DNA of 64,000 bases from Alphaproteobacteria bacterium. Its GTDB lineage: Bacteria; Pseudomonadota; Alphaproteobacteria; Ferrovibrionales; Ferrovibrionaceae. This document shows, piece after piece, positions 5,307 to 64,000 of the stretch (the first letter of the stretch is position 1; each line of letters starts with the position of its first letter). The translations under genes were made by a program, and so were the position numbers. Under the pieces are notes generated by a model. That model ran no database searches. It saw nothing but the letters and a program-made list of their open reading frames with translations, and was not told the DNA's origin. The stretch spans positions 1 to 64,000 of the forward strand of contig CANJGB010000007.1 of the NCBI GenBank assembly GCA_947473805.1. The letters run 5' to 3'.

Positions 5307-5966
5307 GTGAAGGCTGCCGGCGCCCACATCCGGCATCACAGCCGCTTCTATGTCGGCCTCGCGGCCGGCCTTGGAGTCTGGCTGGCGGTCAACGTCGATG
5401 CGTCGCTCCGCTTCATGGTCGCGGGCGACGCGTTCTACATCATCTACCTGGCATCGACCGCCGTACTACTCTTCGGCGCAACATCGGCACGCCTGCGCGA
5501 GCGGGCGGCGGCGGCGGTCGACGACGAGGGCGTCGCGCTGATCGCCGTCATCACGCTGGCGGCGATTGCGCTGAACCTGAGCTCAATGTTCGTGTTCCTG
5601 AGCCAGCCCGAGGGCCCCGACCTGCTGCACGCCGCGCTGTCGATCTCGGGCGTGCCGCTGGGCTGGCTGACGCTCCACACCGTCATGGCCTTCCACTACG
5701 CACACCGCTACTACGCCCGCCGTGGTGGCCCGCGCGGCAAGGCCGGCGATCCGGGCGGCCTCACCTTTCCCGGTGGGGACGAGCCTGGCGCCTACGATTT
5801 CCTGTATTTCTCGTTCGTCGTGGGCATGACGGCCCAGGTGTCCGACGTGCAGGTGACCAGCAGCCGCATGCGCCGGCTGACGCTCGCGCATGGCATCGTG
5901 TCGTTCTTCTACAACACGGTCATCCTGGCGCTGGCGGTGAACATCGCCGTCGGCTGGAGCCACTGA
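5307..5966 (+). CDS. DUF1345 family integral membrane protein
   Basis: The 219-residue protein has about five hydrophobic segments and the hallmark C-terminal block of DUF1345 proteins. That block is GGLTFPGGDEPGAYDFLYFS, then VVGMTAQVSDVQVTS and the HGIVSFFYNTVILALAVNI helix. The biochemical role of the family is not known. GTG 5307 lies four bases after the preceding methyltransferase stop, so it is probably part of the same transcript. It faces the SHOCT-domain gene convergently with three bases between the stops. Confidence 0.88.
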   Translation: MKAAGAHIRHHSRFYVGLAAGLGVWLAVNVDASLRFMVAGDAFYIIYLASTAVLLFGATSARLRERAAAAVDDEGVALIAVITLAAIALNLSSMFVFLSQPEGPDLLHAALSISGVPLGWLTLHTVMAFHYAHRYYARRGGPRGKAGDPGGLTFPGGDEPGAYDFLYFSFVVGMTAQVSDVQVTSSRMRRLTLAHGIVSFFYNTVILALAVNIAVGWSH

Positions 5967-5969
5967 GGC

Positions 5970-6278
5970 TCAGTCGGACGTCAGGTCACGCTTGCGCGTT
6001 TCGTATTCTTCCTGGGTAAGCTGGCCTTCACCCTTCAGCTTTTCCAGTTCGCTCAGGCGATATTCAACCGTCTGATGCGATGACTGCACGTCGTCATTGA
6101 CCTGGCCGGGGGCGGGAAAGGCGACATCCTTGGCGCCCGGGCTCAGCATCGAGCGCCGCGGCGCTGACAGGTCATGGTCGGGCAGGGGTTCGTCACGCCG
6201 TCCCTTCAGCACGACCCAGCCAATGCCGACGCCGACGACCAGCGCAACCAGCAGGAAAACCACGAGTGACCACAGCAC
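5970..6278 (-). CDS. small membrane-anchored SHOCT-domain protein
   Basis: The 102-residue protein begins with one transmembrane helix (about residues 3-24, LWSLVVFLLVALVVGVGIGW). A charged, proline-containing linker follows. The C-terminal short helical hairpin LEKLKGEGQLTQEEYETRKR matches the SHOCT pattern, a short oligomerisation-type domain found at the ends of many bacterial membrane proteins. No enzymatic motif is present. It sits alone on the minus strand just downstream of rlmN, with about 40 bp between. The function is unknown. Confidence 0.78.
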   Translation of the reverse strand: MLWSLVVFLLVALVVGVGIGWVVLKGRRDEPLPDHDLSAPRRSMLSPGAKDVAFPAPGQVNDDVQSSHQTVEYRLSELEKLKGEGQLTQEEYETRKRDLTSD

Positions 6279-6316
6279 GGGCGCCTCCCCTTTGGCGGGA
6301 TGTTGCGCCCACTATA

Positions 6317-7477
6317 TTACACTGCGGGGCCGTTGGCTTCCCGGTAACGCTCGCTGGCGCGTTTCTTTACGCTGGCCGATTTCAGCTGGCCGCACGCGGC
6401 CATGATGTCCCGCCCGCGGGGCACCCGCACCGGCGAGGAATAGCCCCCCTCCAGCACGATGCCGGCGAACCGGCGGATCGCCTCGGGCGTCGAGCATTCG
6501 TACGGTGCGCCCGGCCAGGCGTTGAACGGGATCAGGTTGATCTTCGCCGGGATGCCGGCCAGCAGGCGCACCAGTTCGCGGGCATCCGCCGGGCTGTCAT
6601 TGACGTCCTTCAGCATCACGTATTCGAAGGTGATGCGCCGGGCATTGTTTGCGGTCGGATAGTCGCGGCACGCCTGAAGCAGGTCCTTGATCGGGTATTT
6701 GCGGTTGATCGGCACGATCTCGTCGCGCAGCTCGTCGCGCACCGCGTGCAGCGAGATCGCCAGGTTCACGCCCAGCTCCTCGCCGATGCGGCCGATCATC
6801 GGCACCACGCCGGCGGTCGACAGCGTGATGCGCCGCTTCGACAGCGCGATACCCTCGCCGTCCATGACGATCTTCAGCGCCTTGACCACGTTCTCGACGT
6901 TGTAGAGCGGTTCGCCCATGCCCATCATGACGATGTTCGAGATCATCCGGCCGTCCTTCGGGCTCGGCCATTCGCCAATCGTGTCGCGCGCCAGCATGAC
7001 CTGGCCGACGATCTCGCCCGCCGTCAGGTTGCGCACCAGCTTCATGGTGCCGGTGTGGCAGAACTTGCAGGTCAGGGTGCAGCCGACCTGCGCCGACACG
7101 CACAACGCGCCCCGGTCCTCTTCCGGAATGTGCACGCACTCCGCCTGTTCGCCATCGGCGAAGCGGATCAGCCATTTGCGCGTGCCGTCACTGCTCTGCT
7201 GCAGCTGGTCGGCAACGGGGCGGCCGATGATGAAATGTTCGTCCAGCCGCTTCTGCATGTCGCGGGCGATGGTGGTCATCGTGTCGAACGAGGTGGCGCC
7301 GCGGTGATAGATCCAGTGCCATAGCTGGTTGGCGCGCATCTTTACCGCGCGTTCGGGCTCGCCGATGTCGCGCATCGCCGCGGCCAGTTCCTCGCGGGTC
7401 AGGCCAACGAGGTCGCGCTTGTTGCTTGCCGGCGCCAGGGTGCGCGTGCCGACAGTGACGTCCGGGACGATGCTCAT
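6317..7477 (-). CDS. rlmN: 23S rRNA (adenine2503-C2)-methyltransferase / tRNA A37 methyltransferase
   Basis: The 386-residue product is a radical-SAM methyl synthase. The iron-sulphur cysteines are C133, C137 and C140 in CTLTCKFC. The N-terminal helical RNA-binding region, the GMGEPL motif, a [12 protein letters not shown] block and the C-terminal catalytic cysteine near 362 (IMAACGQL) are all present. RlmN methylates C2 of A2503 in 23S rRNA and of A37 in some tRNAs, improving translational accuracy. Its ATG overlaps the end of the IalB-like gene by four bases, so the two form one unit with IalB first. Confidence 0.96.
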
Positions 7478-7992
7478 GGCGGGCAGGCCGCGTCGATGGC
7501 CTTCAACGCCTGGGCGAAGCCTTGCAGTTCGTAGATATCGGTCGTCGCCGTGCCGCGCGCCGAAACGCCCTTCACCTCAAGGCTGCGCCCGCCGGCCATG
7601 GCGTCGGCCAGCGCCTTGTCGGTCTTGGCGTCGGGCGCCCAGGCGGAATCCTCGCGCACGAACAGCGCGAACTTCGTCGGCCCCACCGCTGCGTCCACCG
7701 TCGACTTTTCCTTCAGGGCATAGCCCAGGTGCAGCGCCACTTCGGCGCGCACCTTCGCCATGCGGCGGTGCGTGACCGTCAGGTAGATCTCGTCGCGTCG
7801 CGCGGTTTTGGGCTCGCTCGTCTTCGGCCGGCCCAGCACATAGCAGACCTGTTCCTTGCCCTCGGTATAGGCAAAGGCCGTCCAGCCATTGAAGGCGCCA
7901 ATCTGCTTCGGCTCGGGCTCGGCGAGCGCCGTCAGCATGGGCGCGCAGACGGCCAAGGCGACGCCGATGCCGAAAGAAAGCGTTTTGAACAT
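7474..7992 (-). CDS. IalB-family (invasion-associated locus B) periplasmic protein
   Basis: The 172-residue precursor starts with a Sec signal peptide (hydrophobic core about residues 7-22, cleavage probable after ALA). The mature part has the family pattern: a W near the start, a CYVLGRPK segment, a middle IYLTVTHRR strand and a conserved [12 protein letters not shown] block, ending in a cysteine near the C terminus. IalB was first described in Bartonella erythrocyte entry, but related proteins are common in non-pathogenic alphaproteobacteria and their role is unclear. It lies directly upstream of rlmN with ATGA overlap, an arrangement I recall from other members of the class. Confidence 0.8.
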
Positions 7993-8104
7993 GATCGGAA
8001 CATAGCGGGGCAGGCAGGCGATTTCCAGTTCCAGTCAGGAATCGTTCTTAAGTCAGGCCAACTTGCCTTGCCCGCCCGCGGGGCCAGTCGCTACAAATGC
8101 CGCC

Positions 8105-8677
8105 ATGTCCCTGCCGCCTTCGGCCACAGACCCCATCCGCGCCCGGCTGGCCGATTGGGTCGAGGCCGTGGCGCGCGACCGCGACCGCGCCGCCTTTTCC
8201 GCGCTGTTCGCGCATTTCGCGCCGCGGCTGAAGACCTATTTGCTGCGCCAAGGTGCCGACAATGCCCTGGCCGAGGAGCTGGTGCAGGAAGCCATGCTGA
8301 CGGTCTGGCGCCGCGCCGAAACCTATGACCGACGGCAGAGCACAGTATCGACCTGGCTCTATACCGTGGTCCGCAACAAGCGCATCGACCGCATCCGGCG
8401 CGAGCGCCGGCCCGAGGTCGATCTCAACGACCCCCTGCTAGTGCCCGACGAGCCGCAATCGCAGGAAGCGGTCATCGATGCCGGCCAGACGGAGATGCGC
8501 CTGCGTACTGCCATTGCCGACCTCCCGGCGGAACAGGCCGACCTGATCCGCATCGCCTTCTTCGAGGATCGTACCCATCGGGATATCGCGGAGTCACAGA
8601 ACCTGCCGCTCGGCACCGTGAAGTCGCGCATCCGCCTCGCGCTGGCGCGGCTGCGCAAAGTGATGGAGCAGGACTAG
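8105..8677 (+). CDS. ECF-type RNA polymerase sigma factor
   Basis: The 190-residue protein has region 2 (about residues 15-95), including VQEAMLTVWRRAETYD and WLYTVVRNKRIDRIRRERR. A short linker follows, then region 4 (IAESQNLPLGTVKSRIRLAL). It most resembles RpoE-type ECF factors that are normally paired with a zinc anti-sigma of the ChrR kind. No anti-sigma gene adjoins it: downstream is a convergent exporter overlapping by four bases, upstream a divergent IalB gene. ATG 8105 gives the usual N-terminal length; an upstream in-frame TTG would add 14 residues of low plausibility. The signal it answers to is unknown. Confidence 0.9.
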   Translation: MSLPPSATDPIRARLADWVEAVARDRDRAAFSALFAHFAPRLKTYLLRQGADNALAEELVQEAMLTVWRRAETYDRRQSTVSTWLYTVVRNKRIDRIRRERRPEVDLNDPLLVPDEPQSQEAVIDAGQTEMRLRTAIADLPAEQADLIRIAFFEDRTHRDIAESQNLPLGTVKSRIRLALARLRKVMEQD

Positions 8678-9855
8678 GTCGGCCGAGGTCGCGTCGCCCA
8701 CCACGACAACAGCGGCGCCAGCGGCATGGGCAGCACGATCAGCCACACCGTGGCCATGACCGTGCCGTCGTGCAGCACGCCGGCCATGACCGAACCCAGC
8801 GCACTCATGGCCGCGTGAATGGTGCCCAGCAGGCCGGATGCAGTGCCGATCATGCGCGGATCGACGCCTACCGCCACCGCAATGCTCATCGAGAACAGGA
8901 AGCCATTCGCGACCGCGACCAGCATCAGCCAGGACAGGAACAGCGGCAAGGACAGCGTGCTGAACAGCGCATGCCAGAGAACCCAGGCGCAGGCGAACAG
9001 GCCCAGCGCGCCGCCGATGTGGATCAGCCTGGTCGGCGCGACCCGGCGCGAAAGCAACGCCACCGTGAAGGACGTGGTGATGTAGGTCAGCGGCATGGCG
9101 GCAAACGCAAGGCCGAACTGGCTAGGTGATAAGCCCAACAGGCCGGTCATCACGAACGGCGCCTCGGTGACGATGGCGAAGAACGAGCCGAAGAACAGCC
9201 CGCTGCCCAGCGCCAACCCCATGAAAAGCGGCATGCGCAGCAAATGGCGATAGGCGGCAAGGATAGACAGCCGCGGCCCGCCGCTGGGGACATGGCTTTC
9301 CGGTACGCTGGTCCAGGTGCCGACGAACATCAGTGCGCCATAGGCCGCGAGTACGAACAGGCCGGCGCGCCAGTCGAAATATTCCACCAGCAGGCCGCCG
9401 ATGACCGGGCCCGTTGCTGGCGCGATGCCGGTCACGCTGCCCATGAACGACAGGATCGAGGGCGAGCGTTCCGGGCCGAAGCGGTCGCGCACCACGGCGC
9501 GCGGCAACACGATACCGGCGCACATGCCGACGGCCTGCAGGACGCGCCCCGCGATCATCACCGGTATCGACGTCGCCAGCCCGACCGCCAGGCTGCCCAG
9601 CGCAAACAGGGCCAGGCCGAACAGCAGCGGCCCGCGCCGGCCCAGCCGGTCCGAAACAGGGCCATAGACCGGCTGCAGCACCGCCAGTGTCACCAGGTAC
9701 GTCGCCACGGTCAGCTGGATGGTCGATACCGGCACGTTCATGCCTGCCGCCGCCGGGATCAGCGCCGGCATGAACAGGGCATAGGTCAGCGGCGAACCGG
9801 CGCTGACGGCTGTCATCAACGCAACGATCAGGCGGCCATTGGCCGGCGCGGTCAC
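8674..9855 (-). CDS. MFS multidrug efflux transporter, Bcr/CflA type
   Basis: The 393-residue protein has about twelve hydrophobic helices and the DHA1 signatures. The loop 2-3 motif is GPVSDRLGRRGPLLFGLALF; the antiporter motif C region is SVTGIAPATGPVIGGLL, with EYFDWRAGLFVL after it. This Bcr/CflA pattern indicates drug/H+ antiport out of the cytoplasm. The gene ends on a CTAG shared with the sigma factor, and its start overlaps the SpoU methyltransferase stop, so those two probably share a transcript. The substrate cannot be read from sequence. Confidence 0.9.
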   Translation of the reverse strand: MTAPANGRLIVALMTAVSAGSPLTYALFMPALIPAAAGMNVPVSTIQLTVATYLVTLAVLQPVYGPVSDRLGRRGPLLFGLALFALGSLAVGLATSIPVMIAGRVLQAVGMCAGIVLPRAVVRDRFGPERSPSILSFMGSVTGIAPATGPVIGGLLVEYFDWRAGLFVLAAYGALMFVGTWTSVPESHVPSGGPRLSILAAYRHLLRMPLFMGLALGSGLFFGSFFAIVTEAPFVMTGLLGLSPSQFGLAFAAMPLTYITTSFTVALLSRRVAPTRLIHIGGALGLFACAWVLWHALFSTLSLPLFLSWLMLVAVANGFLFSMSIAVAVGVDPRMIGTASGLLGTIHAAMSALGSVMAGVLHDGTVMATVWLIVLPMPLAPLLSWWATRPRPT

Positions 9856-42842: not shown

Positions 42843-43505
42843 GTGGCGAAGTTCATCGGCCTGACCGACCCGCTATACGACTACATCACTTCGGTTTCCC
42901 TGCGCGAATCGCCCGTCCTGGGGCGCCTGCGCGCCGAAACCGCAACCATGCCCCGGGCGCAAATGCAGATCGCCCCCGACCAGGGCGCCTTCATGCAGAT
43001 GCTCGTGCGGCTCACCGGCGCACGCAATTGCCTCGAGGTCGGCGTGTTCACCGGCTATTCCGCGCTTGCCGTGGCGCTGGTCCTTCCGGATGACGGCCAT
43101 CTCACCGCTTGCGACATCAGCGTCGAATATACCGCCATCGCCCGCCGCTACTGGCACGAGGCCGGTGTCGACAAGAAGATCGATCTCCGCATCGGTCCCG
43201 CGCTCAAGACGCTGGACGTCCTGATCAGCGAGGATCGCACCGGCACCTACGACTTCGCCTTCATCGACGCCGACAAGGCCAGCTATGACGGCTACTACGA
43301 ACGTGCATTGAAATTGCTGCGCCCTGGCGGCCTGGTTGCTGTCGACAACATGCTGTGGGGCGGCAGCGTGGTCGATGCCGCCAAGTCCGACCCCGATATC
43401 GCCGCCATCCGCGCGCTGAACAAGAAGGTCGGCGCCGATACCCGCGTCGATGTCAGTCTGCTGCCGGTGGGTGACGGCCTGCTGCTCGCCCGCAAGAGGG
43501 CATGA
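42843..43505 (+). CDS. SAM-dependent O-methyltransferase, CCoAOMT type
   Basis: The 220-residue protein resembles caffeoyl-CoA/catechol-type O-methyltransferases. It has CLEVGVFTGYSALAVALVLP as motif I, ACDISVEYTAIARRYWHEA, FAFIDADKASYDGYYERALK with the metal-binding aspartates, and LLRPGGLVAVDNMLWGGSV. The substrate is unknown. Start GTG 42843 follows a CAGGAGA site. Its stop overlaps the ATG of the first ABC permease, so it leads a five-gene operon. The 216 bp before it contain a GGGTCCCC/GGGGACCC inverted pair but no other feature. Confidence 0.88.
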   Translation: MAKFIGLTDPLYDYITSVSLRESPVLGRLRAETATMPRAQMQIAPDQGAFMQMLVRLTGARNCLEVGVFTGYSALAVALVLPDDGHLTACDISVEYTAIARRYWHEAGVDKKIDLRIGPALKTLDVLISEDRTGTYDFAFIDADKASYDGYYERALKLLRPGGLVAVDNMLWGGSVVDAAKSDPDIAAIRALNKKVGADTRVDVSLLPVGDGLLLARKRA

Positions 43506-44452
43506 GCGTATTCCTCGCCAAACGTCTGGCCACCATGGTGGCGACGCTGCTGTTTTCTTCGCTCGTCGTCTTCCTGGTGCTGGAAATCCTGCCGGGTGAT
43601 CCGGCGCAGGTCCTGCTGGGCGTCGACGGCACGCCGGAACAACTCGCCGTGCTGCGCGAGAAGATGGGCCTCAACGCGCCGGCCGCGGCGCGTTACTTCT
43701 CGTGGATCGGCAACATGCTGACAGGTGATTTCGGCACCAGCTATGCCTATGGCGTGCCGGTCTGGTCGCTGCTCGAGGAGCGCCTGGCGCTGACCGTGCC
43801 ACTGGCCCTTGTCGCCATGGCGATGACCGCCTTGTTCGGCCTCGTACTGGGCGTGTGGGCGGCGGCGCGTCACAACCGGCCGGGCGATCTCGCCATCATG
43901 GGCATCAGCCAGCTCGGCATCTCGATCCCGAACTTCTGGTTCGCGCTGATGCTGATCCTGCTGTTCGCGGTCAAGCTCGGCTGGTTCTCCGCCGGCGGCT
44001 TTCCCGGCTGGGAAGACGGCGTGGGCGAGGGGTTGAAGGCGCTGCTGCTACCGGCTTTGGCTTTGGCCACCGTGCAGGCGGCGATCCTCGCCCGCATCAC
44101 CCGCTCGTCGGTCATCGACGTGTTGCAGGAGGATTTCGTCCGCACCGCCCGTGCCAAGGGCCTCGGCCGCCGCGCGGTGCTGTGGCGTCACGCACTGCGT
44201 AACGCATTGATCCCCGTTATCACGGTCATGGGCCTGCAGTTCGCCGAACTGCTGGTTGGCGCCATCGTGGTGGAACAGGTGTTCACCCTGCCCGGCATGG
44301 GCCGCCTGGTGTTCCAGTCGATCGCCAATCGTGACCTGCAGGTGGTGAAGGGTATCGTCATCCTGCTCGCCTTCATGGTTGTCGCCGTGAACTTCGCCGT
44401 CGACCTGCTCTATGCCCTGATCGACCCGCGCCTGAAGGCCAGCGATGTCTGA
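43502..44452 (+). CDS. peptide/nickel-type ABC transporter permease, DppB-like
   Basis: The 316-residue permease has six helices. It starts MSVFLAKRLATMVATLLFSS, has the EAA loop RTARAKGLGRRAVLWRHALR, and ends in VVEQVFTLPGMGRLVFQSIA and NFAVDLLYALIDPRLK. This is the DppB/OppB profile of peptide, nickel or opine importers. It overlaps the O-methyltransferase by four bases and the next permease by eight. Confidence 0.92.
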   Translation: MSVFLAKRLATMVATLLFSSLVVFLVLEILPGDPAQVLLGVDGTPEQLAVLREKMGLNAPAAARYFSWIGNMLTGDFGTSYAYGVPVWSLLEERLALTVPLALVAMAMTALFGLVLGVWAAARHNRPGDLAIMGISQLGISIPNFWFALMLILLFAVKLGWFSAGGFPGWEDGVGEGLKALLLPALALATVQAAILARITRSSVIDVLQEDFVRTARAKGLGRRAVLWRHALRNALIPVITVMGLQFAELLVGAIVVEQVFTLPGMGRLVFQSIANRDLQVVKGIVILLAFMVVAVNFAVDLLYALIDPRLKASDV

Positions 44453-45308
44453 CATGGCCGTCGTATCGTCCGGCGCCGGCTTCTGGCGGCGCGCCCGCCG
44501 CCACCGCAGCTTCGTGTTCGGCGGCATCCTCTCGGCGGTGCTGGTTGGCACGGCGGCGCTGTCGCTGGTCTGGACGCCGCATTCGCCCTATCGCATCGAC
44601 ATTCCGAACCGCTTGAAGCCGATGTCGCCGACCTACTGGCTGGGCACCGACCCGTTCGGCCGCGATGTCTTTTCGCTGCTGATGACCGGGGCGCAGAATT
44701 CCATCGTCGTCGGTGTTGTGGCCGTCGCCATCGGCATGCTGCTCGGCACCGCGCTGGGCCTGCTCGCCTCCGCCCGGCGCGGCTGGGTCGAGGAGCTGGT
44801 CATGCGCTTCACCGATTTCAGCTTTGCCTTTCCCGCCATCCTCACCGCCATCATGCTGACCGCCGTGCTCGGCCCCGGCACGGTGAATTCCATCATCGCC
44901 ATCGGCATTTTCAACATCCCGGTCTTCGCCCGCGTCGCGCGCGGCGCGGCGAATGCCGTGTGGTCGCGCGAGTTCGTGCTGGCGGCCCGGGCCTGCGGGC
45001 GCGGGCGCCTGCGCATCACGTTCGATCATGTGCTGCCCAACATCGTCTCGGTCATCGTGGTCCAGGCCACGATCCGCTTCGCGCTGGCGATTCTGGCCGA
45101 GGCCGCGCTCTCCTATCTCGGTCTCGGCACCCAGCCGCCGAATCCGTCCTGGGGCCGCATGCTGAACGAGGCGCAGACGCTGATCTACATCGCGCCGCAG
45201 CTGGCCATCTTCCCCGGCATCGCCATCGCGCTTGCCGTGCTGGGCCTGAACCTGCTGGGTGACGGCCTGCGCGACCTCGTCGATCCGCGCCTGATACGCC
45301 GCCGCTGA
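44445..45308 (+). CDS. peptide/nickel-type ABC transporter permease, DppC-like
   Basis: The 287-residue permease has six helices, with the DppC N-terminal helix followed by the short periplasmic block SPTYWLGTDPFGRDVFSLLM. The EAA loop is LAARACGRGRLRITFDHVLP, and the typical end is SYLGLGTQPPNPSWGRMLNE then LNLLGDGLRDLVDPRL. It would pair with the DppB-like subunit. The start ATG 44445 lies inside the upstream gene; a second ATG at 44454 is possible. Confidence 0.92.
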   Translation: MSDMAVVSSGAGFWRRARRHRSFVFGGILSAVLVGTAALSLVWTPHSPYRIDIPNRLKPMSPTYWLGTDPFGRDVFSLLMTGAQNSIVVGVVAVAIGMLLGTALGLLASARRGWVEELVMRFTDFSFAFPAILTAIMLTAVLGPGTVNSIIAIGIFNIPVFARVARGAANAVWSREFVLAARACGRGRLRITFDHVLPNIVSVIVVQATIRFALAILAEAALSYLGLGTQPPNPSWGRMLNEAQTLIYIAPQLAIFPGIAIALAVLGLNLLGDGLRDLVDPRLIRRR

Positions 45309-46297
45309 TGGCCGAGGTTCTGCTCTCCGTCCGCAACCTGCGGGTCGATCTGCCCGGCCCCGGCGGCCCGCTGCCGGCGTTGCGCGGCATCGACTTCGAG
45401 ATCGCGCGCGGCGGCACGCTGGGCCTCGTTGGCGAATCCGGGTCCGGCAAGTCGATGACGGCGCTGGCGCTGATGGGCCTGCTGCCCGAGGGCGCAAAAC
45501 TTTCCGGCTCGATCCGCTTCGAGGGGCGCGAACTGGTCGGCCTGCCGGAAAGCGCACTGTGCGACCTGCGCGGCAACCGCATCGCGATGACGTTCCAGGA
45601 ACCGATGACCGCGCTTAATCCCGTTCAGCCCATCGGCCGCCAGGTCGCGGAATCGATGATGCTACATCGCGGCTTTTCGCGCGCCGTAGCGGAAGACGAA
45701 GCCGTGCGCCTGCTCGACCGCGTCGGCCTGCCCGATCCGCGCCGGCGGCTCGCGTCATATCCGTACCAGCTGTCCGGTGGCCAGCGCCAGCGGGTGATGA
45801 TCGCATTGGCGCTCGGCTGTGCGCCCGCGCTGCTGATTGCCGACGAACCCACCACCGCGCTCGACGCCACCATCCAGGGCCAGGTCCTGGCCCTGCTGCG
45901 CGAACTGGTCGAGGAGCGCGGCATGGCCCTGCTGCTGATCAGTCACGACCTCAACGCCGTCGCCGCCGCGGCAACCGATGTCGCGGTCATGTACGGCGGC
46001 GCCATTGTCGAGCGCGGCCCGGCTACCTCCGTCTTCCGCGCGCCCGCGCATCCGTACGCGAAGGGCCTGATCGCCGCCCTGCCGGCGCTTGAGCCAGAAC
46101 GTCTGGCCGGCGCGCCGCGCGCGCGCCTGCAGGCCATTCCCGGCAGCGTGCCCGATCTTGCCGGCTTCGGCCCGGGCTGCACGTTCGCGGATCGCTGCGC
46201 CTGGGTCATCGGTGCCTGCCGCGCCGCACCGCCGCCGCTCGTGCCCGTCTCGCCTGGCCACAGCGCCGCCTGCATCCGCCTGGGTGACCTCTCGTGA
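45308..46297 (+). CDS. peptide-type ABC transporter ATP-binding protein, DppD-like
   Basis: The 329-residue ATPase has Walker A GESGSGKSMT, Q-loop MTFQEPMTALNPVQPIG, signature LSGGQRQRVMIALA, Walker B LLIADEPTTALDATIQ and H-loop LLLISHDLNAVA. The C-terminal oligopeptide-transporter extension contains GCTFADRCAWVIGACRAAPP with three cysteines of the putative iron-sulphur site seen in DppD-type proteins. The start overlaps the DppC-like stop as TGATG. Confidence 0.92.
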   Translation: MAEVLLSVRNLRVDLPGPGGPLPALRGIDFEIARGGTLGLVGESGSGKSMTALALMGLLPEGAKLSGSIRFEGRELVGLPESALCDLRGNRIAMTFQEPMTALNPVQPIGRQVAESMMLHRGFSRAVAEDEAVRLLDRVGLPDPRRRLASYPYQLSGGQRQRVMIALALGCAPALLIADEPTTALDATIQGQVLALLRELVEERGMALLLISHDLNAVAAAATDVAVMYGGAIVERGPATSVFRAPAHPYAKGLIAALPALEPERLAGAPRARLQAIPGSVPDLAGFGPGCTFADRCAWVIGACRAAPPPLVPVSPGHSAACIRLGDLS

Positions 46298-47088
46298 CCG
46301 CGCCCTTGCTCGAGGTGGAGAACCTGGTGCGCACCTTCACGCTGCCGCGCGAGCACCTGTTTCGCCCGCCGCCGGTGGTGAACGCGCTGCGCGGCGTTGG
46401 ATTCACCATCACACCGGGGCGCAGCCTGGGCCTGGTCGGCGAATCGGGCTCCGGCAAATCGACGCTGGCGCGCCTCGCCATGGCGCTGGACCGGCCGACG
46501 TCCGGCACCGTGCGCCTCATGGGCCACGATCTTTTCGCGCAGCCGGCGGCCAAGCTTCGGACGCTCCGCCGCCACATGCAGATGATCTTCCAGGACCCCT
46601 ATGGCTCGCTCGACCCGCGCCAGAAGGTCGCCCGCATCGTTGCCGAACCGCTCGAGGCGCTGACCGGTGCGCCGAAGGCGGAGCGTGAGGCCCGCGTGCG
46701 TGAGGCTTTGGCCTCGGTCGGTCTCGGCGATACCGCGCTCGACCGCTACCCGCACGAATTTTCCGGCGGCCAGCGGCAGCGCATCGCCACGGCGCGTGCG
46801 CTGGTGACGCGCCCCGACCTTATCGTCGCCGACGAACCGGTCTCCGCGCTCGACGTCTCGGTGCGCGCCCAGGTGCTGAACCTGCTGCGCGACCTGCAGG
46901 AGAAGTTTTCCGTCACTTTCTTGATGATCAGCCACGACCTCGCCGTCGTCGACTACCTGTGCGACGACATCGTCGTGCTGAAGGACGGTCTCATTGTCGA
47001 AAGCGGCGCGTCGGCAGAAATCCTCCGCCGCCCGCAGCACCCCTACACCCGCGAACTGATCGCCGCCGCGACGAAGCGGTACAGCTGA
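46294..47088 (+). CDS. peptide-type ABC transporter ATP-binding protein, DppF-like
   Basis: The 264-residue ATPase has Walker A GESGSGKST, Q-loop MIFQDPYGSLDPRQKVA, signature FSGGQRQRIATARA, Walker B LIVADEPVSALDVSVR and H-loop FLMISHDLAVVDYLC. It lacks the C-terminal cysteine extension of its partner and ends shortly after HPYTRELIAAA. Starting at GTG, it overlaps the preceding gene by four bases. No substrate-binding protein gene follows; a repeat and the DUF2794 gene come next. Confidence 0.91.
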   Translation: MTAPLLEVENLVRTFTLPREHLFRPPPVVNALRGVGFTITPGRSLGLVGESGSGKSTLARLAMALDRPTSGTVRLMGHDLFAQPAAKLRTLRRHMQMIFQDPYGSLDPRQKVARIVAEPLEALTGAPKAEREARVREALASVGLGDTALDRYPHEFSGGQRQRIATARALVTRPDLIVADEPVSALDVSVRAQVLNLLRDLQEKFSVTFLMISHDLAVVDYLCDDIVVLKDGLIVESGASAEILRRPQHPYTRELIAAATKRYS

Positions 47089-58597: not shown

Positions 58598-58652
58598 GCG
58601 GCTCTTGTTTCTCGCCGCCGCACCGCGCCGGCGGAAACAACATGTTGTGGCG

Positions 58653-61448
58653 TTACGCCGCCTTCTTGAGGTTGCGCAGCACGTAGGCCAGCACGCCGCC
58701 GTTCTTGTAGTACTCGATCTCCTCGGCGGTATCGATGCGGCACAGCACCTCGATGGTGTCGACCATGCCGTTCGACCGGCTGATCGTCACCGGCAGCATC
58801 ATGCGGGGGCGCAGGCCGCCCGAAATGCCCTTGATGTCGAACAGTTCGGTGCCGGTCAGCGCCAGGCTCTTGCGGTCGGTGCCGTCCTTGAACTGCAGCG
58901 GCAGCACGCCCATGCCGACCAGGTTCGAGCGGTGGATGCGCTCGAAGCTTTCCACCAGTACCGCCTTCACGCCCAGCAGCAGCGTGCCCTTCGCGGCCCA
59001 GTCGCGCGACGAGCCGTTGCCGTATTCCTTGCCGCCGATGACGACCAGCGGCGTGCCGTGGGCCTTGTACTTCATGGCCGCGTCGTAGATCGACATGGTC
59101 TCGCCATCCGGCATGTACTTGGTCACGCCGCCTTCCACGCCCGGCACCATCTCGTTCTTGATGCGGATATTGGCGAACGTGCCGCGCATCATGATCTCGT
59201 GGTTGCCGCGCCGCGCGCCGAACTCGTTGAAGTCGGCCGGCGTCACCTTGTGGTCCAGCAGGAACTTGCCCGCCGGGCCGTCCTTCTTGATCGAACCGGC
59301 CGGCGAGATGTGGTCGGTGGTGATCTTGTCGCCGAGGATGGCCAGCGGCCGTGCGCCGGTCACATCGCCCGGCGCGCTGGTCTGTTCCGTCATGCCGACG
59401 AAATAGGGCGGGTTCTGGATGTAGGTCGAGGTCGCGTCCCAGTCATAGGTCTGGCCGGTGCTGACCTTCACCTTGCGCCAGTTGGCGTTGCCCTTGAAAA
59501 CGTCGGCATAGCGCGCGCGGTAGCTGCCCGACGTGACGCACTTGTTGACCACCTTCTGGATCTCTGCGTTGCTCGGCCAGATGTCCTTCAGATAGACCGG
59601 CTTGCCCTTCTGGTCGGTGCCCAGCGGGTCGCGCGTGATGTCGATCGTCAGCGAACCGGCAATGGCATAGGCCACGACCAGCAGCGGCGAGGCCAGGTAG
59701 TTGGTCTTCACCTGGGCGTGAACGCGGCCCTCGAAGTTGCGGTTGCCCGAGATCACCGCACCGGCGGTGATGTCGTTGTCGGTGATCGCCTTGGCCACGT
59801 TGTCCGGCAGCGGGCCGGAATTGCCGATGCAGGTCGTGCAGCCATAGCCGACCAGGTTGAAGCCCAGCTTGTCGAGGTCCTTCTGCACCCCGGCCTTGGC
59901 GAAATAGTCGGTGACCACCTGGCTGCCCGGCGCCAGCGAGGTCTTGACCCACGGCTTGACGCGCAGGCCGCGCTTGACCGCGTTGCGCGCCAGCAGGCCG
60001 GCGCCCAGCATGACGCTGGGGTTCGACGTGTTGGTGCAGCTGGTGATCGCCGCGATGACCACGTCGCCATGGCCCAGGTCCCAGTTCGCGCCATCCACCT
60101 TGAAGCGCTGGCCGTTCTCTTCCGGCGTCTTCTTGGTGAAGGTCGGCAAGGCGGTGATGTACTCGCTGGCGACGTTCGACAGGGCGACGCGGCCTTCCGG
60201 CCGGCTCGGTCCCGCCATCGACGGCTCGACGGTGGCGAGGTCCAGCTCCAGCGCGTCGGTGAACACCGGGTCCGGCGTCTTCGGCGTGCGGAACATGCCC
60301 TGCGCCTTGGCATAGGCCTCGACCAGGGCGACGCGCTTGGCGTCGCGGCCGGTGCGCTTCAGGAACGACAGCGTCTCGGCGTCGACCGGGAAGAAGCCGC
60401 AGGTCGCGCCATATTCCGGCGCCATGTTGGCGATGGTCGCGCGGTCGGCCAGCGCCAGTTCGTTCAGGCCGGGGCCGTAGAACTCGACGAACTTGTTGAC
60501 CACGCCCTTCTTGCGCAGCATCTGCGTGATGGTCAGTACCAGATCGGTGGCCGTCGCGCCTTCCTTGACCTTGCCGGTCAGCTTGAAGCCGACCACTTCC
60601 GGCAGCAGCATCGGCATCGGCTGGCCCAGCATGCAGGCCTCGGCTTCGATGCCGCCGACGCCCCAGCCCAGCACGCCCAGCGCGTTGACCATGGTGGTGT
60701 GGCTGTCGGTGCCGACCAGCGTGTCGGGATAGGCGATCTCGGCGCCGGCCAGGCGGCCGGTCCACACCGTCTGCGCCAGGTATTCCAGGTTCACCTGATG
60801 GCAGATGCCGGTGCCCGGCGGGACGACGCGGAAATTGGCGAACGAGTTCGAACCCCAGCGCAGGAAGGTGTAGCGGTCGGTGTTCAGCTGGTATTCGCGC
60901 TCGACGTTCTTCTTGAACGAGTCCTTGTGGCCGAAGCTGTGCACGCCGACCGAGTGGTCGATGACCAGGTCAACCGGCACCAGCGGGTTGATCTTCTCCG
61001 GGTTGCCGCCCAGGTTCTTCATGGCGTCGCGCATGGCGGCCAGGTCGACCACTGCGGGCACGCCGGTATAGTCCTGCATCAGCACGCGGGCCGGGCGATA
61101 GGCGATCTCGCGGTCCGACTTGCCTTCCTTCAACCAGCCGGCAAAGGCCTTGATGTCGTCGGTCTTGACCGACGAGCCGTCCTCGTTGCGCAGCAGGTTT
61201 TCCAGCAGCACCTTGAGCGAGAAGGGCAGGCGCGAGAAATCGACGCCCAGCGCCTTTTCCGCCGCCTTGAGGCTGTAATAGGAATAGGCCTTGGTGCCGA
61301 CCTTCAGGGTCTTGCGGGTCTTCAGCGAGTCGCGGCCGACCGAGGTGGTATCCGGCAGGGCAACCTTCCGGGCGGGCGCCTTCTTAACGGATTTTGGACG
61401 TACGGCGGCCTTCTTCGCGACTTTCTTCGCGACCTTCCTGACGGGCAC
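58653..61448 (-). CDS. acnA: aconitate hydratase A with lysine-rich N-terminal tail
   Basis: The 931-residue enzyme interconverts citrate and isocitrate in the TCA cycle. It has the 4Fe-4S cysteines in ITSCTNTSNPS and GCTTCIGNSG, TLVGTDSHTTMVNALGVLGW, GYGCTTCIGN, and the swivel-domain block GGKEYGNGSSRDWAAKG. Normal AcnA begins near DSLKTRKTLKVGTKAYSYY; here about 35-40 extra residues precede it, rich in K, A, R and V (RKVAKKVAKKAAVRPKSVKK). AAGGAG lies seven bases before GTG 61448, and no ATG or GTG start lies between it and the core, so the tail appears real. It stands alone on the minus strand. Confidence 0.95.
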   Translation of the reverse strand: MPVRKVAKKVAKKAAVRPKSVKKAPARKVALPDTTSVGRDSLKTRKTLKVGTKAYSYYSLKAAEKALGVDFSRLPFSLKVLLENLLRNEDGSSVKTDDIKAFAGWLKEGKSDREIAYRPARVLMQDYTGVPAVVDLAAMRDAMKNLGGNPEKINPLVPVDLVIDHSVGVHSFGHKDSFKKNVEREYQLNTDRYTFLRWGSNSFANFRVVPPGTGICHQVNLEYLAQTVWTGRLAGAEIAYPDTLVGTDSHTTMVNALGVLGWGVGGIEAEACMLGQPMPMLLPEVVGFKLTGKVKEGATATDLVLTITQMLRKKGVVNKFVEFYGPGLNELALADRATIANMAPEYGATCGFFPVDAETLSFLKRTGRDAKRVALVEAYAKAQGMFRTPKTPDPVFTDALELDLATVEPSMAGPSRPEGRVALSNVASEYITALPTFTKKTPEENGQRFKVDGANWDLGHGDVVIAAITSCTNTSNPSVMLGAGLLARNAVKRGLRVKPWVKTSLAPGSQVVTDYFAKAGVQKDLDKLGFNLVGYGCTTCIGNSGPLPDNVAKAITDNDITAGAVISGNRNFEGRVHAQVKTNYLASPLLVVAYAIAGSLTIDITRDPLGTDQKGKPVYLKDIWPSNAEIQKVVNKCVTSGSYRARYADVFKGNANWRKVKVSTGQTYDWDATSTYIQNPPYFVGMTEQTSAPGDVTGARPLAILGDKITTDHISPAGSIKKDGPAGKFLLDHKVTPADFNEFGARRGNHEIMMRGTFANIRIKNEMVPGVEGGVTKYMPDGETMSIYDAAMKYKAHGTPLVVIGGKEYGNGSSRDWAAKGTLLLGVKAVLVESFERIHRSNLVGMGVLPLQFKDGTDRKSLALTGTELFDIKGISGGLRPRMMLPVTISRSNGMVDTIEVLCRIDTAEEIEYYKNGGVLAYVLRNLKKAA

Positions 61449-61687
61449 GGCATTCTCCTTAGGGGTGCGCCTTGGCGCAGACGAACGGGATGGCCGCAGT
61501 TTGCCAAGGCGAGCGCGGCAAATCCAGCGGCGCGTGCCGGATTTGGCCCCCGTTTCCCCGAAACGAGACCATCCGACGCGCTGCGCCACTATAAGCGGCA
61601 CGGCATTTGCTCTTCGTTAATGCGAGGCTGGTCGACTCCAGCAAATCCGCCATTCCCTCCAGTGGCGGCAGTTCAAACCGGGACACC

Positions 61688-62203
61688 ATGATCCATTCTG
61701 CGTCTCCTTTCCGTCCATTCCTCCGCACGGCCCTCGGGCTGGGTGCGCTGGCGCTTGCGGTGGGCGGCTACTGGATGACGCGTCCGGACCTCATTCCCGA
61801 CCCCTCGCCCGAGGAACTGGGCCGGCTCAGTCCCGCCGCCGGCGGCGATGCCACCGGTCAGATGACAATCAGCATGGTGATCCCCGCCCAGCTGGCCGCC
61901 ACCGTGCCGACCGCCATCCGGGTCGAACGCACCGGCCGCGCGGCTTCTTCCAGCCCGTTCAACCTCTGTTTCGATGGCACGACCGGCGCCGGCTACCGCC
62001 TCAGCATGGCCGATGCCGTCCCGACCCAGCAGCTGGTTCGCCTGGGCAGCAACGGTCCGGCCGTTGTCGCCGGCGGTGCGGCGCCCAGTGCTGTCATGAC
62101 CCAGTCGTGCCGCGAGGCCGACAGCCGCCCGTTCAGCCTGCAATATGCCGAGGCTCCGGCAGCGTTCGACCGGCCGGTCACGGTCATGGTTACGCCCCAG
62201 TAG
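61688..62203 (+). CDS. exported small protein, possible pilus/coat subunit
   Basis: The 171-residue protein has an N-terminal hydrophobic segment (about 12-30, TALGLGALALAVGGY) after a short basic start. The exported part contains MTISMVIPAQLAATVPTAIR, FNLCFDGTTGAGYRLSMADA and a second cysteine (TQSCREADSRPFSLQY), which may form a disulphide. It ends VTVMVTPQ. The next gene encodes a relative of the same design, and a PapD-like chaperone follows. This context suggests a structural subunit of a chaperone-usher fibre; I recognise no named family. ATG 61688 is used. Confidence 0.6.
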   Translation: MIHSASPFRPFLRTALGLGALALAVGGYWMTRPDLIPDPSPEELGRLSPAAGGDATGQMTISMVIPAQLAATVPTAIRVERTGRAASSSPFNLCFDGTTGAGYRLSMADAVPTQQLVRLGSNGPAVVAGGAAPSAVMTQSCREADSRPFSLQYAEAPAAFDRPVTVMVTPQ

Positions 62204-62293
62204 TCAGGACTAAACGCCTAGGTTTTTCCGGCCCGAACAGGTTTAGCCTTCCAGACGTTACCGCAGAGAGCGGCGACGTGCGCTGGAGGGCAC

Positions 62294-62701
62294 ATGTCGG
62301 GTTGGGGAAACGTCGGCCACACGGGCGGCGCAGTGCTTCTGTCGGGGGCGCTGGCGTTCCTCGTGTGCCCGGCCGCCGCCGACCCGCTGGCCAACACCGC
62401 CCAGGTGCGCATCAGCCTCACCATTCCCGCCCGCGCCACCAGCCCGACCGCGCTGCGCATCGCCGGCACCGCCAGCCAGTCCTTCGACCTGTGCCTCGGC
62501 ACCCCGTCCGGCTTCCGCATCTAGCCGGCCGCAACCAATGCCGGCACACTCGTTCGCCGCGACGGCATCCGCCAGGCGCCGGGCCAGGTCGGTGACGTGC
62601 GCAGCGGCGCGTGCGCGGAGGAGATCGACTACCGGCTCGACTTCGGTGCGACGGCGCCAACCTTCTCTGCCGCCAATACTTTCGTTATCATCCCGCAGTG
62701 A
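62294..62701 (+). pseudogene. small exported relative of the preceding gene, broken by an amber codon
   Basis: From ATG 62294 the frame gives a signal peptide (ending AAA near residue 36), QVRISLTIPARATSPTALRI and FDLCLGTPSGFRI. A TAG follows at 62522-62524 (codon 77). The same frame then continues as PAATNAGTLVRRDGIRQAPG through GACAEEIDYRLDFG to FVIIPQ and TGA 62701. The two parts together align in order with the neighbour at 61688 (two cysteines, same spacing and ending). The amber codon is therefore an interruption of one gene of about 135 codons. Confidence 0.75.
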
Positions 62702-63393
62702 TTCGGTCCGGGGTGGTTGGTTTGAAAAGCAGTCTGTCGTTCGCCGCCGTCCTGTTCGCCGCGCTGGCGGGCCTGGCCGCGCCAGCGCGGGCGCAGATGA
62801 TCCTGAACAAGGTCTCGCTCGAATTCGCGTCAGGTGGCGCGCCGCGTGACGATATCGAGGTCACTAATTCCGGCAGCGAGACGCTGTACGTCCAGATCGA
62901 ACCGAACCGCATCCACGATCCCGGCACGCCGCAGGAAAAGCGCGTGCTGTACCGCGACCCGGCCGAACTGGGCCTGCTCATCACGCCCAGCCGGCTGGTG
63001 GTCCCGCCGGGCCAGACCCAGGTGGTGCGCATCGCCGTGGTCGACCCCTGCAAGGAAAGTGACAAGGTCTACCGCCTGACGGTGCGCCCCGTGGTGGGCG
63101 AGGTGAAGTCCGCCGAGACCGCGATCAAGGTGGTCATCGCCTATGACGTGCTCGTGATCCTGCGCCCGCCCAACCCGAAGGCGGACCTGAAGACCGAACG
63201 CGCCGGTCGCAAGATGACGCTGTCGAACACCGGCAATTCCAGCATCCTGCTGTCGCAGGGCAAGCAGTGCGATGCATCGGGCAATAACTGCCAGGTGATC
63301 CCGCCGTACCGGCTGTATCCCGGCCGACCTGATGCAGCAGATGGTTGCCGACCAGCGCAAGGTGGCGGAGCGTCAGGCGCAGGTCGCCCTTGA
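62698..63393 (+). pseudogene. PapD-like periplasmic pilus chaperone, C terminus lost
   Basis: A frame starting GTG 62698 (overlapping the previous TGA) gives a signal peptide ending ARAQ. PapD landmarks follow: ILNKVSLEFASGGAPRDDIE, LLITPSRLVVPPGQTQVVRI, VYRLTVRPVVGEV and KMTLSNTGNSSILL. It continues normally to IPPYRLYPG near 63320. After that the frame reads an unrelated alanine/glycine tail to 63393, while another frame enters a universal stress protein. Chaperone strands near the C terminus are missing, so function is doubtful. Confidence 0.8.
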
Positions 63394-63982
63394 TCGTGCC
63401 CGCGCTGCGTCCGTCGACGTCCGCTCAGTGATCCGCCAGGCGCCCGCAGCCTATTCTGTCATCGATGCCGCCGCTGCCGCCGACCTTGTGATCATGGGGC
63501 AGCCCAATCCCGATGCGACGCCGGCAGGCGATCCGTCTCTGCCGGCCGATGTGATCCTGGGCTGCGGCCGCCCGGTGCTGTGCGTCCCGTATGCGGGCGA
63601 CCATCGCAACGCGGGCAGGCGCATCATGGTGGCATGGAACGGCACGGCGCCCTCCGCCCGCGCAGTGCACGATGCGCTGCCGCTGCTCGTCGCCGCTGAC
63701 CAAGTGATTGTCACAAGTGTCGGTGACCTGCCAGAGGGCAAGGTCGGTCTTGCCGGCCTGGTCGAACATCTCGGTCGCCATGGCGTTAAGGCGGTGGCGA
63801 AGCCGCTGCCCGCCACCAGCAGCGATGCCGGCAGTATCATTCTGGGCGCGGTCTCCGACACCGGTGCGGACCTGCTTGTCATGGGTGCCTATGGCCATTC
63901 GCGCATGCGCGAGTTCGTGCTGGGCGGCACCAGCAAGACCATCATCCAGTCGATGACGGTGCCGGTCCTGCTGTCCCATTGA
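63332..63982 (+). pseudogene. universal stress protein, N terminus missing
   Basis: From ATG 63332 the 216-residue product holds the end of one USP domain (AADLVIMGQPNPDATPAGDP) and a full second one. The second domain opens RIMVAWNGTAPSARAVHDAL and has the nucleotide-binding motif GAYGHSRMREFVLGGTSKT. In tandem USPs of this type about 60 residues come before the QQMVADQRKVAERQAQ helix; here that region is replaced by the chaperone gene. The same frame reads PADL just before the ATG, so the break lies near 63320. The second domain may still be expressed. Confidence 0.78.
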
Positions 63983-64000
63983 CGGGCGCGGGCAGGGGAA

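Follow-up and report, generated by a model that had tools for sequence, protein, structure and literature searches.

Near position 63320 of the window (the whole stretch of 64,000 bases that was analysed, bases 1–64000 of a 123,532-base contig), the gene for an alpha-type pilus chaperone runs out of frame into the inside of a gene for a two-domain universal stress protein (USP), with one end missing from each gene and the two meeting within eight bases and in adjacent frames (Table 1). We consider it probable, at roughly 0.8, that a natural deletion between short repeats joined the chaperone gene to the USP gene and removed an usher gene between them. On this reading it is an unremarkable deletion scar accompanied by gene decay, and the analysis revealed no new system. 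The finding matters mainly for annotation: it suggests a pilus operon that is only a remnant in this lineage, in which case neither the chaperone nor the truncated USP should be listed as functional. It also clearly illustrates how homology alone can place a frame-breaking join to within about eight bases.

Table 1. Positions of the join and of the genes around it in the window.
Feature	Position	Strand	Remarks
Presumed aconitase-like gene	58653–61601	minus	adjoins the pilin-like, chaperone and USP genes, all on the plus strand
Pilin-like protein 1, 171 aa, intact	61688–62203	+	open frame
Pilin-like protein 2, in-frame TAG at 62522–62524	62294–62701	+	translation ...SGFRI-stop-PAATN...FVIIPQ-stop
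Truncated alpha-type pilus chaperone	62722–63324	+	201 residues matching relatives; TTG start assumed
Join	63317–63324	+	bases under both homologies, ATCCCGGC: chaperone Tyr-Pro-Gly and USP Ile-Pro; putative direct-repeat overlap
Out-of-frame chaperone tail, 22 residues and stop	63325–63393	+	translation RPDAADGCRPAQGGGASGAGRP; stop 63391–63393
N-terminally truncated two-domain USP	63317–63982	+	Pfam Usp; first in-frame ATG 63332 (216 aa)

Two truncated genes and the bases they share

The chaperone matched PapD_N (E 4.8e-6), had CfaA and related chaperones as its relatives in the PDB, and matched the fimbrial chaperone model TcfA at E 1.2e-11, with a score of 44.7 bits that is far below the 500-bit cut-off of that model; judged by sequence similarity, it belongs with the alpha-type (TcfA/CfaA-like) fimbrial chaperones. 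Its best relatives, both of 228 aa and from another family (genomes G210 and G302), are 50–51% identical to it and extend 28 residues beyond the join. The homology ends at Tyr-Pro-Gly (63316–63324), where the frame reads ...IPPYRLYPG, and the 22 residues that follow are unrelated to the chaperone relatives. The protein is thus not a complete two-domain PapD-like chaperone, as the N-terminal domain is present and the last ~28 residues at the C-terminus are absent. All 26 aligned chaperone relatives continue past the join (27 loci were supplied, one of which gave no hit).

On the other side, the USP frame reads IPADLMQQMVADQRK... through to its stop codon, remaining open for 221 codons past the join, and matched Pfam Usp at E 2.7e-14. 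With matches admitted up to E 1, two stretches matched this family, the better one covering residues 96–214 of 216, and the start of the first domain is absent, leaving fewer than two complete Usp domains. The homology opens abruptly at a conserved Ile-Pro (63317–63322), with the first ~52 residues lacking. Sixteen genomes each contributed their best USP to the alignment (26 hits in total, 10 left unaligned), and these homologues of 274–318 aa, with 38–52% identity in the aligned parts, all have at least 52 further N-terminal residues and an Ile-Pro or Val-Pro at the matching place (16/16 for both). The alignment extends to the end of the truncated USP and covers its second domain together with the glycine-rich loop.

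The change of frame is also visible in the base composition, as the third codon positions of the chaperone have a GC fraction of 0.78–0.95 over the nine steps of 120 bases that lead up to 63321, and the same codon position has 0.38–0.62 in the full 120-base steps starting after it, so that the phase of codon-position GC shifts at the join. The frame switch, this shift and the two homologies together confirm the out-of-frame chaperone/USP join described in the initial annotation, and the 26 chaperones and 16 USPs, all of which extend beyond it, bear out the loss of one end from each gene at about 63320. A true fusion of the two genes was found in none of these aligned proteins.

Bases shared by the two genes had been noted within 63300–63393, and they are indeed present, with the sequence of 63310–63335 being CGGCTGTATCCCGGCCGACCTGATGC, but the shared stretch is slightly longer than had been claimed. 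The parental sequences have to be deduced from homologues that are 38–52% identical, and the whole Tyr-Pro-Gly is found in only five of the 26 chaperone relatives (14 have the Tyr, 17 the Pro and 17 the Gly, counted by eye), so the length of the shared repeat, 6–9 bases, is to be read as an estimate. Random joins in the window shared at least six bases in 0.35% and at least eight bases in 0.04% of 200,000 draws, after pairs closer than 50 bases had been dropped. The overlap of the homologies in a short stretch is consistent with a deletion between short repeats.

Gene neighbourhood and a stop in one pilin-like gene

The source assembly comprises 3.31 Mb in 58 contigs, and is estimated to be 95.3% complete and 0.45% contaminated. 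On the plus strand, the first pilin-like gene is followed by the second, the PapD-like chaperone and the USP gene. The minus-strand gene that adjoins them was named aconitase-like from its sequence. Antisense to it lies an open frame of 1028 codons (58605–61691); such frames are common in GC-rich DNA, and nothing indicates that this one is a gene.

The first pilin-like protein has an N-terminal hydrophobic segment, a pair of cysteines and the C-terminal end ...VMVTPQ, and it weakly resembled pilins encoded in the operons of relatives (lowest phmmer E 5.6e-4, in a set of only 11 pilins). No Pfam match of note was obtained for either pilin-like gene, nor any NCBIfam match for the first. The part of the second protein that precedes the stop codon shares 42% identity with the first across 50 columns (E 2e-6 by blastp when only these two sequences were compared), and it had no clear match among the 11 pilins (best E 0.033). 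From the translation, the TAG is probably a nonsense mutation, since the frame continues beyond it to a pilin-like end, ...FVIIPQ.

Further upstream in the window is an operon for an ABC transporter, presumably of the peptide type, with two permeases and two ATPases (43502–47088). Several genomes of the same family have genes similar to those of this operon close to a USP gene, and the USP gene and the transporter may thus once have been neighbours. Synteny was searched in 16 genomes, 15 of the same family and one (G018) of another, taking from each a single region of at most 20 kb that surrounds its best USP, and using frames of at least 100 aa and E ≤ 1e-15; no match spanned the join, and besides antisense frames only USP and ABC-transporter genes were matched.

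Loss of the usher and distribution of the operon

A chaperone match was found in 28 of 385 genomes of the class, including the genome under study, and in 12 of the 27 others both the chaperone and an usher could be located. In 11 of these 12 relatives (G210, G302, G187, G250 and the seven named below) chaperone and usher are no more than 5 kb apart; in the twelfth, G338, they fall on different contigs, and the chaperone stands at the end of its contig. The usher is downstream on the same strand in seven of the 11 (G142, G139, G196, G306, G100, G290 and G161), for the last five of which its position was taken from match coordinates only, and in G139 two pilin-like genes on the opposite strand separate it from the chaperone. 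This agrees with the earlier expectation of an usher after the chaperone in relatives. The usher open reading frame of G210 is 1265 aa long (5581–9378 of locus L047), with a SPOR domain after CooC_C, and those of G302 and G250 also exceed 1190 aa. One in-frame TAA lies inside the usher match in each of G338, G306 and G100, and one is also spanned by the chaperone match of G306; the matches in these three genomes may represent broken genes or may overrun the gene end.

A Pfam scan of four relatives' ushers matched TcfC in all four and CooC_C in all four (three above the cut-off), and PF00577 in one (E 0.007). As PF00577 alone would be misleading, an alpha-type usher profile (A1) was built from five ushers, and this profile was positive in seven of seven chaperone-bearing control genomes that had no part in its construction (six at E ≤ 1e-79, one at 6e-9). 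Neither PF00577 nor A1 detected an usher in the 3.31 Mb assembly under study, in which a single PF16967 match (12 bits, E 0.48) was far under the cut-off of 29.4, and no outer-membrane usher with TcfC/CooC_C was detected. The SCPU model likewise had no match in this genome. Applied to G018 and to the 17 genomes of the same family, A1 gave only three matches, all at chance level (E 0.09–0.48). An usher elsewhere in the genome was considered and rejected, with three kinds of profile finding none above cut-off. Since the usher stands near the chaperone in relatives and none is found here, it probably once stood near this chaperone as well and is now gone, although the missing part of a 95%-complete assembly in 58 contigs could hold it.

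No chaperone match was found in 17 genomes of the same family, seven of which are less than 90% complete, in a collection that holds one genome per species and offered relatives from other genera only. The operon therefore looks lineage-specific and dispensable. A scan of the genome collection with the chaperone alone gave nothing, a scan with a three-row alignment gave three loci, one of them gammaproteobacterial at 42%, and a search of the phylum returned only weaker relatives, in 30 of 398 genomes apart from the one under study, with 28% identity for the match that scored highest. It is probable that the pilus operon was acquired in this lineage alone and is now in decay.

Origin of the join

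The usher survey, the negative usher searches in the assembly and the overlap of the homologies all support the loss that the initial annotation had put forward, namely of the chaperone's end and the USP's start together with an usher. In the sequence of events that we propose, a deletion between two short direct repeats, ATCCCGGC, would have fused the Tyr-Pro-Gly region of the chaperone to the Ile-Pro region of the USP, taking with it the last ~28 codons of the chaperone, the usher gene, anything that lay between, and the promoter and first ~52 codons of the USP. Such an event would have taken place in the cell, likely by RecA-independent slippage or by end joining at the repeat, and would leave the pilus operon and the truncated USP as pseudogenes. 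Three USPs were matched in the genome, including the truncated one, so its loss may have been tolerated.

Two intact loci, from the same or from related organisms, could also, as the initial annotation had allowed, have been falsely joined during assembly or library preparation and their true continuations lost from the bin, and the join would then look identical to that left by a deletion. We regard this as unlikely, while noting that the assembly is fragmented (58 contigs) and that synteny across the join was absent in the 16 genomes searched. The 81 bases of 63280–63360 occur only once in the assembly (34 candidates, each of them scored), their best other matches being 23 bases at 96% to the right of the join (63329–63351) and 18 exact bases to its left (63293–63310). 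Among the matches listed, the longest exact one touching the join is 16 bases, and no exact repeat of 21 bases crosses it; a search of the assembly with 62200–64000 gave two short matches, both away from the join, for the 40 of 190 candidates that were scored. The putative shared stretch of ~8 bases is below the length on which an assembler merges sequences. A false join is further opposed by the usher being found nowhere else in the assembly, by the stop in the second pilin-like gene as a second defect in the operon, and by a GC fraction that is even over the join (0.65–0.70 in 500-base steps across 62001–64500). A search for an orphaned USP start is of less help, because it was insensitive: at a limit of E 1, the profile used (A2, 76 positions) matched in four places, namely a complete paralogue on C19 (a 289-aa frame) at E 0.04, the truncated USP itself, C18 at E 0.23 and C4 at E 0.93, with the latter two viewed only as lists of frames of at least 200 aa. 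With a whole paralogue reaching only E 0.04 and the third USP (C52) missed, this negative is weak.

It is very improbable that the join is instead a functional remodelling kept by selection, either as a chaperone that has gained a tail of 22 residues or as a USP starting from the ATG at 63332 on the pilus transcript. The USP frame that stays open after the join and aligns through its second domain speaks for such a use, but at ~66% GC an open frame is weak evidence, and the reverse strand is also open over most of the stretch. The chaperone's second domain is cut short and no usher was detected for it to work with, the first domain of the USP lacks its beginning, and such a fusion is absent among the 26 chaperones and 16 USPs aligned. 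We give equally little credence to the idea that the deletion produced a new gene pair that has been kept, with the USP made from the pilus promoter and its start codon lying inside the out-of-frame chaperone tail.

The deletion that we favour can be set beside known systems. The locus resembles alpha-type chaperone-usher operons (TcfA/TcfC, CfaA/CfaC) in having a PapD-like chaperone related to CfaA and to the TcfA model with two pilin-like genes beside it, and differs from them as a remnant in which the usher is not found, the chaperone is cut and one pilin-like gene carries a stop. In its aligned parts the USP has the 38–52% identity to two-domain USPs (Pfam Usp) given above, and it differs from them in its missing first ~52 residues. 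RecA-independent deletions between short direct repeats are described for E. coli (PMC5426353). Compared with those deletions, the repeat here is deduced from protein families and not from parental copies, and the likeness lies in a join at a stretch common to both sides with the intervening genes presumably lost.
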